DNA of 64,000 bases, taken from Cyclobacteriaceae bacterium. Lineage in GTDB: Bacteria > Bacteroidota > Bacteroidia > Cytophagales > Cyclobacteriaceae. The translations under genes and the position numbers were made by a program. The stretch is from the NCBI GenBank assembly GCA_026003355.1, contig BPHC01000001.1, forward strand, positions 392,109 through 456,108, read 5' to 3'. The notes beneath the pieces were generated by a model. That model was not told the origin of the DNA, searched no databases, and saw only the letters and a program-made list of their open reading frames with translations. This document shows positions 38,633-47,477 of the stretch, in pieces (the stretch's first letter is position 1; the number at the start of each line of letters is the position of its first letter).

Positions 38633-39655
38633 ATGCTTAACGTAACACAGAACGTTAACCTGGCCCCATACAACACTTTTGGCGTTTCCGAATATGCACA
38701 TTGGTTTACCCGCATTAACAACCCGCAGCAAATAAAAGAACTTGTTAACCATCCGGTTTTTGCCGCAAAGCCACATTTAATACTTGGCGGCGGCAGCAAC
38801 ATACTCTTTACCCGCTCTTTCGAAGGACTGGTGATAAAAGTTGATATAAAGGGCATAGAAAAAATACGCGAAGATGCCAACCATGTTTGGCTAAAGGTGG
38901 GTGCAGGCGAAAACTGGCATAGCCTGGTTATGCACTGCGTAACAGCCAGCTATGGCGGTATTGAAAACCTGGCGCTGATACCCGGAACTGCCGGCGCAGC
39001 ACCCGTTCAAAACATTGGCGCCTATGGCGTTGAACTTGCCGAAGTGCTCGAAGAAGTACAAGGGTTTAACCTGGCCGACGGCACCCAACTCAACCTGTCG
39101 AATAATGAATGCCGCTTCGGTTACCGCGACAGTATATTTAAACAGGAACTAAAGGGAAAGTTTTTTATTTCAAGTATAACTTTAAGACTAACCGTTGGCA
39201 GGCACCAGCTTCGCACCTCATACGGAACGCTGGCCGATACCTTAATCGCCATGGGCGTTAACCAGCCCACCCTTTACCACGTTAGCCAGGCAGTTATCCG
39301 CATTCGCACTTCCAAACTTCCTGACCCCGCCAGAACAGGCAATGCCGGCAGCTTTTTCAAAAACCCTGTTATAAGCGGAAAGCAGTATCGCGAATTAAAA
39401 GAAATACATCCGAAGATACCTGGTTTTATTGTTGATAATCAGGGAGTTAAAATTCCTGCAGCCTGGCTCATTGAACAGTGCGGATGGAAAGGAAAAAGAA
39501 TAGGCAATGCAGGCGTGCATGAACATCAGCCACTGGTTCTGGTGAACTTAGGAGGTGCAAGCGGACAGGAAATTCTTAAGCTGGCTGAGGAAGTTCGCCA
39601 CTCGGTTGCCGAAAAGTTTAACATCGATTTGACGCCTGAGGTTAACATTATTTAA
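38633..39655 (+). CDS. murB: UDP-N-acetylenolpyruvoylglucosamine reductase
   Basis: The 340-residue protein is a type I MurB. FAD-binding motifs include LAPYNTFGV, HLILGGGSNILFT and NLALIPGTAGAAPVQNIGAY, with RFGYRDSIFK and GNAGSFFKNPVIS, where Ser in GSFFKNP is the proton donor, and GVHEHQPLVLVN at the C-terminus. It reduces the enolpyruvyl group in peptidoglycan precursor synthesis. ATG 38633 is chosen; an in-frame TTG lies five codons upstream. It follows the lipoprotein gene by 21 bases. Confidence 0.95.
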   Translation: MLNVTQNVNLAPYNTFGVSEYAHWFTRINNPQQIKELVNHPVFAAKPHLILGGGSNILFTRSFEGLVIKVDIKGIEKIREDANHVWLKVGAGENWHSLVMHCVTASYGGIENLALIPGTAGAAPVQNIGAYGVELAEVLEEVQGFNLADGTQLNLSNNECRFGYRDSIFKQELKGKFFISSITLRLTVGRHQLRTSYGTLADTLIAMGVNQPTLYHVSQAVIRIRTSKLPDPARTGNAGSFFKNPVISGKQYRELKEIHPKIPGFIVDNQGVKIPAAWLIEQCGWKGKRIGNAGVHEHQPLVLVNLGGASGQEILKLAEEVRHSVAEKFNIDLTPEVNII

Positions 39656-39732
39656 TGCAAGTCATCAGCCGGCAACTTTTTGACAAGACCACCTGAAGTT
39701 TTCAGAATTTTAAAATTTTTTTAAAAAAATTT

Positions 39733-39761
39733 TTGGAGATTATTTTTTTGTTATATCTTTT
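39733..39761 (+). promoter_or_regulatory. Promoter for the lysine-rich microprotein
   Basis: TTG at 39733-39735 and TATCTTTT at 39754-39761 are spaced by 18 bases, close to the Bacteroidota -33/-7 layout (TTG, about 19, TAnnTTTG). The last base of the -7 box deviates. The region is very AT-rich. A start near 39768 would give a leader of about 26 bases before the ATG. Confidence 0.6.
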
Positions 39762-39793
39762 CCATGTTTTTCAACCACTAAACAACCAACGCT

Positions 39794-39844
39794 ATGGCAA
39801 AGAAAGCGAAGAAGGCTAAGAAAGCCGCCAAGAAGAAGAAGTAA
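39794..39844 (+). CDS. 16-residue lysine/alanine microprotein
   Basis: The ORF encodes MAKKAKKAKKAAKKKK and a TAA stop. It is 11 Lys and 4 Ala after Met, with a charge near +11, and could bind nucleic acid or ribosomal RNA. Support for a real gene: a promoter-like sequence upstream, a small hairpin right after the stop (39845-39863), and a strong terminator 27 bases later, with no other ORF in the transcript. The start context GCTATGGCAAAGAAA is shared with the histone-like gene at 47214. I know no named family of this size. Translation has not been shown. Confidence 0.6.
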   Translation: MAKKAKKAKKAAKKKK

Positions 39845-39863
39845 TTTAGGTAGTTTACCTAAA
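39845..39863 (+). other. Hairpin directly after the microprotein stop
   Basis: TTTAGGTA and TACCTAAA pair over a 3-base loop as an 8-bp perfect stem that starts on the base after the TAA stop. It has no T-run, so it is not a terminator itself. It may stabilise or regulate the short transcript. Confidence 0.6.
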
Positions 39864-39870
39864 GGTCTTT

Positions 39871-39902
39871 AAGGGAAGCGCTGAAAAGTTGCTTCCCTTT
39901 TT
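39871..39902 (+). terminator. Intrinsic terminator after the microprotein
   Basis: AAGGGAAGC pairs with GCTTCCCTT as a perfect 9-bp stem with an 11-base loop, followed by a run of T ending at 39902. With the promoter near 39.74 kb this defines a short RNA of about 130 bases holding one ORF. Confidence 0.87.
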
Positions 39903-40062
39903 GTTTTCATGCCGGCATAAATATTTGCAGGGTAAATTCTTAACCAACATCAGGGCATTTCACCCTTTTTCATTCGTTTTCGTAAATAAATCGTGTGGCA
40001 TACCTGCTTTAAATGTTTGTGCATGCTAACTTTACACTGGCGCAACCAAAACAAGTTCGGCT

Positions 40063-40377
40063 ATGGCTAAGGAAAAACCAACCTCTTCGCAAACCAAATC
40101 CACGAGTAAGGCAACACCTAAAAGCACAGCAGTGAACATTGATCAGCTGAGTGAACAGGTGCTTAAAAAACTTCAGGCTTTGAAAATAGAACAAGGTCTT
40201 CAGGCCGATATCCAGTGGTGCATTGGCAGCTACCGGTTCGATAAGAATCCGGTTGGTTTGTACCAGATGCTGGAGCGCGCCCACCCGGTGCTCCGGGCTG
40301 TGCGCGAAAAAAATCCGCGCTCGGTGGCAGCCAAACTGCTTGCCGACATCGAAAAAGCGCTGAAACAAAGAAGCTGA
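40063..40377 (+). CDS. Hypothetical protein with Lys/Ser/Thr-rich N-terminus
   Basis: The 104-residue protein has an N-terminal tail rich in Lys, Ser, Thr and Pro (about residues 2-24: EKPTSSQTKSTSKATPKSTA), then a helical domain with LQADIQWCIGSYRFDKNPVG and LYQMLERAHPVLRAVREKNP. The DIQWC.GSYR.DKNPVGL part looks conserved among Cytophagales hypothetical proteins as I recall, without a function. The start context GGCTATGGCTAAGG resembles that of the microprotein 270 bases upstream. It is cytoplasmic by lack of a signal. Confidence 0.65.
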   Translation: MAKEKPTSSQTKSTSKATPKSTAVNIDQLSEQVLKKLQALKIEQGLQADIQWCIGSYRFDKNPVGLYQMLERAHPVLRAVREKNPRSVAAKLLADIEKALKQRS

Positions 40378-42101: not shown

Positions 42102-44372
<2,271 letters not shown>

Positions 44373-44441: not shown

Positions 44442-44456
44442 ATAGACAAAATCTAT
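44442..44456. promoter_or_regulatory. OxyR-type box ATAG-N7-CTAT over the oxyR start
   Basis: ATAGACAAAATCTAT is an inverted repeat of ATAGA and TCTAT with a central CAAAA. It fits the half-site ATAG-N7-CTAT known for E. coli OxyR. It covers the predicted transcription start and the first two bases of the oxyR ATG. A weaker ATTG-N7-TTAT (44421-44435) lies 6 bases away. This suggests negative autoregulation; a link to katG is inferred. Confidence 0.55.
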
Positions 44457-45390
44457 GACTTTAACACAACTTGAATATATTGTTGCAGTTGATACCCACC
44501 GGAATTTTGGCGTGGCGGCTGAAAAGTGCTTTGTAACCCAGCCCACGCTAAGCATGCAGATTCAAAAGCTGGAAGAAGAGCTGGGAGTAAAAATTTTCGA
44601 CCGCTCGGTAAAGCCCGTAAGGCCTACCGAAATTGGTGAAGAGGTAATTGCACGCGCACGCCTGGTTTTGCGCGATGCCGGAAGTATTAAGCAAGTTATA
44701 AACGATCGGCAGAATACCCTTTCGGGGGAGTTAAGAATAGGCATTATTCCCACACTGGCGCCTTACCTGTTGCCTCCCTTGTTTAGCCGGCTTCGCAAGG
44801 CTTACCCGCAACTGGAGCTGAACATCCGCGAAATCATGACTACTGAAATAATCAGGGAATTGAAAAGCAACAAGCTGGACTGCGGACTGGCCGCCACCCC
44901 GCTCAACGATCCACTTATACGGGAAGACGTTTTGTTTTACGAAGAGATGTACGTGTATGTATCGAAAAAAAATGCCCTGTATAACAAAAAGTACATACTG
45001 CCCAATGAAATTAACCCCGACAAGCTGTGGTTGCTGGAAGAAGGGCATTGCTTCCGCACCCAGATTTTAAACCTGTGCGAGCTTCAAAAAAGCACGGCCT
45101 TCCATTGCCGGTACGAAACAGGCAACATAGAGTCGCTTAAAAGAATGGTCGACCAGAGCGATGGCATTACCGTTCTGCCCGAACTGGCCGTGCACGAACT
45201 GGGTAATGCCGAACTCCGGCAGGTAAAAAGGCTTAAGCAACCCCCGCCGGTGCGCGAGGTAAGCCTCATAACCCACCGCGACCAGATTAAAACACGGCTC
45301 ATTCATGCTATACGAAGCACCATTATGGGAATTGTTCCCTCCCACATGCACAAGCTGCAAAAGCGCAAAATTGTAGAATTGAGCCTGTAA
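44455..45390 (+). CDS. oxyR: Hydrogen peroxide-inducible LysR regulator OxyR
   Basis: The 311-residue LysR-type protein has a helix-turn-helix (LEYIVAVDTHRNFGVAAEKC, TQPTLSMQIQKLEEELGVKI) and a two-lobed sensor domain. The redox pair is in EEGHCFRTQILNLC: Cys199 and Cys208, the same positions as in E. coli OxyR, where they form the peroxide-sensing disulfide. It probably activates katG, which is divergent, and others. The ATAG box on the start codon suggests it represses itself. Confidence is high because both cysteines and the gene order agree. Confidence 0.93.
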   Translation: MTLTQLEYIVAVDTHRNFGVAAEKCFVTQPTLSMQIQKLEEELGVKIFDRSVKPVRPTEIGEEVIARARLVLRDAGSIKQVINDRQNTLSGELRIGIIPTLAPYLLPPLFSRLRKAYPQLELNIREIMTTEIIRELKSNKLDCGLAATPLNDPLIREDVLFYEEMYVYVSKKNALYNKKYILPNEINPDKLWLLEEGHCFRTQILNLCELQKSTAFHCRYETGNIESLKRMVDQSDGITVLPELAVHELGNAELRQVKRLKQPPPVREVSLITHRDQIKTRLIHAIRSTIMGIVPSHMHKLQKRKIVELSL

Positions 45391-47192: not shown

Positions 47193-47213
47193 GAACATAA
47201 AACCATTGTTGCT

Positions 47214-47477
47214 ATGGCAAAGAAAAAAGCTACCAAAAAAGCAAAAGCCAAACCCAAAAAAGCCGCCAAAGGCAAGAAGGCCGGTAAAGCTGTAAAAAAG
47301 GCCACGAAAAAGGCCGCGAAAAAGAAAGCTGTTGCCAAAAAGGCCGCTGCCAGGAAAACAGCCCGCAAGGCTGCACCCAAGAAAGCAGCACCGGCACCTG
47401 CGCCTTCACCCGTTCCTCCTCCACCCGCTCCCGGACCACTTTTTGGTGGCGGAGAAGGAAGCGGAACCTCTATGTAA
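47214..47477 (+). CDS. Lysine/alanine-rich histone H1-like protein
   Basis: The 87-residue protein is built of AKK/KKA repeats (MAKKKATKKAKAKPKKAAKG and similar through residue 58), then a Pro/Ala linker and a short acidic-glycine end (LFGGGEGSGTSM). This resembles the C-terminal tails of eukaryotic histone H1 and bacterial HU-type or AlgP-like tails, which bind DNA. It lacks any folded domain. The start context matches the 16-residue microprotein at 39794, MAKK...AKK. A terminator follows after 23 bases. The role is probably nucleoid binding. Confidence 0.76.
   Translation: MAKKKATKKAKAKPKKAAKGKKAGKAVKKATKKAAKKKAVAKKAAARKTARKAAPKKAAPAPAPSPVPPPPAPGPLFGGGEGSGTSM

Follow-up and report, generated by a model that had tools for sequence, protein, structure and literature searches.

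Can a reading frame of only 16 codons be a gene in its own right? The frame in question, which encodes MAKKAKKAKKAAKKKK (10 Lys and 5 Ala), lies in a 64,000-nucleotide stretch of the contig BPHC01000001.1 from a Cyclobacteriaceae bacterium (assembly GCA_026003355.1, positions 392,109 to 456,108 of the forward strand), hereafter the window. A 16-residue gene is under the usual annotation limits. The original prediction, made from the letters of the window, held that the frame is a stand-alone microprotein gene with a promoter, a terminator and an extra hairpin directly after the stop codon, and comparison across genomes provides strong support for this arrangement (Table 1).

Table 1. Features of the microprotein locus and neighbouring genes (window coordinates)
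Feature	Position	Strand	Basis or remark
murB (UDP-N-acetylenolpyruvoylglucosamine reductase; putative ATG start)	38633..39655	+	Pfam MurB_C 109.1 bits; synteny
Predicted promoter: TTTG (-33) 39732-39735, 18-nt spacer, TATCTTTT (-7) 39754-39761	39732..39761	+	Sequence and comparison
Predicted 5' untranslated region, putative start point, ends AACGCT	39766..39793	+	75% mean identity
Microprotein ORF MAKKAKKAKKAAKKKK	39794..39844	+	ATG 39794, stop TAA 39842-39844; conserved, differences mostly synonymous
Post-stop hairpin TTTAGGTA-GTT-TACCTAAA	39845..39863	+	Perfect 8-bp; stem of at least 5 bp there in 34/44 members
Predicted intrinsic terminator GGGAAGC...GCTTCCC with T-rich tail	39871..39908	+	Sequence and comparison
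104-residue protein, Lys-rich start, no Pfam family	40063..40377	+	Usual downstream neighbour of copy A
87-residue Lys/Ala/Pro-rich histone-like protein, same start context, outside the unit	47214..47477	+	

The constant upstream neighbour of the ORF at this site, which we call copy A, is murB. In the genus, most loci that are readable downstream of copy A carry a frame related to the 104-residue gene there; no relative of this gene turned up at the 29 other murB-type loci surveyed. The start context GCTATGGCAAAGAAA had been noted to recur at the 87-residue gene, and an exact recurrence is found at 47211-47225; this gene is accompanied by a terminator-like stem, and its product has no Pfam match at E ≤0.01. 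Between the two loci lies a divergent pair (42102-44345 on the minus strand and 44455-45390 on the plus strand) that we take, judging from the translations, to resemble a catalase-peroxidase and a LysR/OxyR-type regulator.

For comparison, we collected 46 non-redundant short members of the ORF family, after leaving out a broken long gene of 27 residues (L160); one member with a different leader, in which the terminator was not seen (L157), was later dropped, leaving 45. The predicted promoter, TTTG-N18-TATCTTTT, is close to the Bacteroidota primary consensus of TTTG at about -33 and TAnnTTTG at -7, as given in PMC7366714. Among the 44 of the 45 members that have at least 80 nt of upstream sequence, 40 carry a promoter-like pair of this type, compared to 6.2% of mononucleotide shuffles, which is more than chance would give. 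The proposed strong terminator corresponds to a GGGAAGC/GCTTCCC stem with a T-rich tail. An alignment of 23 murB-locus copies shows pairing in 97.2% of the cells of this stem, alterations on both sides in 22 cells and a covariation score of 0.298; 0 of 500 shuffles came as high on each of these measures. The number of double-change pairs (4, reached by 33 of 500 shuffles) and of further pair types (10, reached by 118 of 500) is not exceptional. A sigma-70 scan of the window returned another plus-strand site instead (39680-39708), and the plus-strand terminator at 39871-39908 was not listed by the generic window scan. Because these generic scans left out both signals, the support for the plus-strand promoter and terminator is comparative.

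Conservation along the unit was measured in 14 of the 16 murB-locus copies of the genus (those of G002 and G009 extend over more than one contig and were omitted). Mean pairwise identity is highest at the two ends of the ORF (94% in the first seven codons, and 95% in the last codons and the stop), followed by the promoter segment (85%), the terminator (84%), the leader (75%) and the 22 bases past the stop (71%), and is lowest at the end of murB (64%), in the intergenic DNA before the promoter (45%) and beyond the terminator (45-46%). Loss of the ORF in relatives with persistence of the hairpins would have pointed to a non-coding RNA; the opposite was observed, the ends of the ORF being the best conserved parts and the sequence of the post-stop hairpin changing. 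The 45 members comprise 36 distinct ORFs, in which codons 1-7 encode MAKKAKK and the last seven encode KAAKKKK with few exceptions, third positions vary, and the variation within these first and last seven codons is mostly silent. The peptide MAKKAKKAKKAAKKKK itself is encoded by 4 different DNA sequences. In 42 pairs of equal length, 197 codon differences are synonymous and 84 nonsynonymous, compared to an expected synonymous share of 19.6% for random single-base changes, with the caveat that neither pairs nor members are phylogenetically independent. Conservation of the unit, the mostly synonymous codon changes and the frequency of the promoter-like pair (40 of 44) and of the post-stop stem (34 of 44) together make translation of the ORF very probable. 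We consider that the ORF is likely a real, conserved gene that has been overlooked.

Several features of the unit as RNA bear on the same question. The hexamer AACGCT stands directly before the ATG in 41 of the 46 short members. In 31 of 45 members the four bases 5' of the ATG are complementary to the end of codons 4-5 (CGCT/AGCG, TGCT/AGCA or AGCT/AGCT; within 39790-39808 in the window), the other 14 being short of one pair or more, and codon 5 is GCG unusually often (22 of the 36 distinct ORFs). The 137-nt stretch folds better than most shuffles, with a z-score of -2.88 (2 of 200 shuffles were as stable), but its minimum-energy structure has some bases of the ORF paired to the terminator tail. 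The window has 0 Rfam matches at gathering scores. A small non-coding RNA in which the ORF is incidental would fit the size of the unit (about 140 nt), its promoter- and terminator-like ends and its conserved stems, and would accommodate the pairing of the pre-ATG bases and the common GCG at codon 5. It would not account for differences that are mostly synonymous with amino-acid ends conserved, for stop codons that are TAA in 44 and TAG in 2 of 46 members, or for a hairpin whose sequence is free to change between copies. Given the silent variation, we rejected a non-coding RNA with a chance ORF, a reading that we regard as very improbable.

The extra hairpin placed directly after the stop by the original prediction is also present. 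A stem of at least 5 bp starting no more than 3 nt past the stop was detected in 34 of 44 members (this count also excludes L072, which is cut at the contig end), above the chance level of 8.7% obtained with mononucleotide shuffles, and the same criterion selects 26 of 293 long frames from the same loci. By this rule the stem is absent in 10 of 44 members, among them four (L009, L024, L028 and L030) with the hairpin GTTGATG-GAAA-CATCAAC 5 nt past the stop; the Chryseotalea-type copies L022 and L093 are without a post-stop stem. The stems of copies A are of the TTAGG/CCTAA type, and those of the second copies of the genus (copies B) are of the GATC or GTTGATG type. Because the stem types differ between copies A and B, it is the place of the hairpin that is kept and not its sequence. 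Such a hairpin may protect the 3' end of a short mRNA, or may prevent base pairing between the purine-rich ORF and the pyrimidine-rich terminator.

Copy A was found downstream of murB in 16 of the 17 genomes of the genus, the window's own included; in the 17th (G006), murB is a fragment at a contig end and the locus is unreadable. This position is kept despite MurB proteins that are only 53-59% identical to the window's in 5 full-length cases. The start pattern matched in 18 of 99 genomes, own included, and in 14 of 17 of the genus; G011 and G013, missed by the exact pattern, carry MAKKAAKKAAKKTAKKAAKKKK and MAKKTAKKAAKKAVKKTAKKAAKKKK at the same murB site. A second copy lies at another place in at least 12 of the 17 genomes, a lower bound because the exact pattern was used, and the single-contig genome G014 has copy A only. 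In the window's genome the second gene encodes MAKKAKKAKKAAKKAKKAKKAAKKKK on another contig, where it too is accompanied by a promoter-like pair, a post-stop hairpin and a terminator-like stem of different sequence; an HNH-endonuclease-like gene (L033 4912-5475) lies upstream of it. The segment AARAARAARAARTAA occurs at 8 sites of the same genome, none of which, besides the two copies, ends a comparable Lys/Ala ORF. At one second-copy locus with equal neighbours, the protein has 16 residues in G005 vs. 26 in the window's genome, owing to a 30-base in-frame difference.

The surroundings of the two copies also bear on whether the ORF could be the lysine-codon leader peptide of a transcription attenuator. 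Leaders of the hisL type consist of a peptide, a hairpin, a terminator and a regulated gene downstream, and superficially this is the anatomy of the unit. A co-directional frame, moreover, follows copy A in nearly every locus readable downstream (an opposite-strand frame was assigned automatically in the window and in L081, although the 104-residue gene of the window is co-directional). However, the next frame is on the opposite strand in 6 of 12 second copies of the genus (L033, L035, L050, L051, L057 and L059). The next frame was assigned mechanically here, as one of at least 90 residues, and L048, whose opposite frame overlaps the ORF, is not among the six. The genes downstream also differ from copy to copy, and Ala is conserved as well as Lys. 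Such leaders are defined by a regulated same-strand gene directly downstream, in place of which these six second copies have an opposite-strand frame; copy A itself precedes a co-directional gene. On the evidence of the convergent frames after 6 of the 12 second copies, an attenuator leader was rejected as a working explanation and seems to us extremely improbable.

The family as a whole comprises Lys/Ala microproteins of 16-57 residues, with members of 17-57 residues in two further genera of the bacterial family. A scan with CGCTATGGCAAARAARGCNAARAARGC of 84,980 genomes, each representing a different species and searched in its contigs of at least 3 kb, yielded 49 stretches, of which 35 are short ORFs (16-42 residues) and 14 are longer proteins with the same N-terminus and the CGCTATGGCAAA start; the labels of the matches are mainly Cyclobacteriaceae or Flammeovirgaceae MAGs. 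Chryseotalea sanaruensis has a 42-residue form. A synteny check of 14 further loci placed 10 downstream of murB, with products of 17, 18 or 25 residues. Within the bacterial family, the start pattern was found in 80 of 390 genomes and in 7 of 84 sampled genera; loci from six of these seven genera were inspected, and short forms occur in three (the window's own genus g1, g18 and g34). The 28 newly fetched loci, a subset of a longer list of start-pattern places in the family, comprise 9 short forms, 18 long ones and 1 broken long gene; this last (L160) is a KA-rich gene in which the frame ends after 27 residues and codons of the Lys/Ala type go on downstream. The murB-type loci surveyed number 30, cover 24 genera and stem from a set of 114 genomes with a match. 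Such an ORF is present only at the window's own, the other 29 being outside g1, g18 and g34; in 6 of the 30, the genome has two MurB_C matches and the locus may be that of a MurB-like paralogue. Other Lys-rich short frames at 4 of the 30 loci appear by eye to be unrelated. The suggestion that such genes could be widespread stands for part of one family only, with short forms seen in three genera. We found no microprotein of this kind in Bacteroidota in the open-licence literature that was searched.

As to function, the reading that we favour, with moderate confidence and on the strength of sequence comparison, is that of a translated microprotein gene with a product that would act as a free-standing histone H1-type tail on DNA or RNA. 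Expressed from a short transcript of about 140 nt, the peptide would be disordered and, with ten Lys on sixteen residues, would bind the backbones of DNA or RNA by charge; once bound, it could help to compact or shield them. Charge-driven binding to nucleic acid is the most likely mode of action, and we infer that the microprotein is a tail-only analogue of histone H1-like proteins such as Hc2 and AlgP. DNA, RNA and polyphosphate were all considered as targets of such a polycation, and composition alone cannot separate DNA, RNA, the ribosome and polyphosphate. The very small basic ribosomal proteins bTHX and eL41, for example, have a fixed length and sequence, and a ribosome- or RNA-binding micro-protein of their kind, in place of a nucleoid protein, would fit the size and charge of the product as well as the conserved promoter-like unit and its constant place. 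The microprotein, in contrast, consists of low-complexity repeats of variable number, and a length that varies from 16 to 57, with two unequal copies in one genome, is not what would be expected of a component shaped for a single rRNA pocket, which makes this alternative unlikely in our view. Less likely still is a role as counter-ion for polyphosphate or some other polyanion, or as its scaffold, of the sort put forward for the H1-like tail of AlgP. The KPAA tail of that protein, alike in kind in its composition, is needed for the spacing of polyphosphate granules, and its peptides bind DNA (PMC9239181). A weak argument against the polyphosphate reading is that none of the six Pfam-identified neighbours in the window's genome is a polyphosphate gene.

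If translated, the H1-type tail proposed here would be among the smallest conserved free-standing bacterial genes for a histone-tail-like protein, and would indicate that a tail needs no attached domain to be inherited, duplicated and kept by selection; what repeat number does in H1-like tails could then be tested directly with short synthetic peptides. Trypsin should cut a 16-residue peptide with ten Lys into fragments too small to see and, because such genes also fall under annotation limits, they could be overlooked elsewhere. A more general and distinctly tentative proposal is that there is a tail-only class of histones, made up of autonomous Lys/Ala genes of 16-40 residues, often two per genome, in which repeat number would tune nucleoid compaction, with a post-stop hairpin as part of the expression unit, and which would be invisible to gene callers and trypsin-based proteomics.

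Comparison to known systems delimits the microprotein further. Searches with three longer members of the short form (22, 26 and 42 residues, the 16-mer being too short a query) yielded no Pfam or NCBIfam family at E ≤1, the Hc2 profile (PF07382) included, and a protein search with the 42-residue member gave no match at E ≤1 among 7981 candidates scored, for which low complexity may be the cause. Hc2 (HctB) of Chlamydia, with Hc2-like proteins in Bordetella, Burkholderia and others, is likewise built of short Lys/Ala-rich repeats; it is described as a protein of 165-237 residues that varies in size by the number of Lys-rich repeats and binds DNA and RNA (PMC2848022). The in-frame change in repeat number is seen here too (16-57 residues overall, and 16 vs. 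26 at one syntenic second locus), whereas the microprotein is far shorter than the Hc2 range given there and has no further domain. The KPAA tails of AlgP and PhaF of Pseudomonas are Lys/Ala-rich and H1-tail-like, as is the microprotein, but they are Pro-rich and fused to a structured domain, whereas the ORF encodes the tail alone, with no Pro and no such combination of domain and KPAA tail. SWIB-domain proteins of the same bacterial family (for example in Ohtaekwangia and Chryseolinea) share the start MAKKAKKAAKK and the CGCTATGGCAAA context; one longer protein with this start scores 100 bits for SWIB and, weakly, 19.5 bits for HC2 (cut-off 40). These proteins carry a SWIB domain of about 74 positions, whereas the microprotein stops after the tail and is shorter than the domain. 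A SWIB protein is listed among the DNA-associated proteins of Waddlia (PMC6426960). SWIB (PF02201) was detected in 9 of 61 genomes and was not found in the window's genome. In 7 of the 17 genomes of the genus, SWIB proteins with a KA-rich N-terminal tail (L185-L189, L191 and L192) occur alongside the microprotein, and therefore the microprotein does not simply replace them, an idea that we considered and set aside. By its predicted anatomy, the microgene is a variant of the H1-like tail proteins that stands outside Hc2, AlgP and SWIB by the tests that define each of them.
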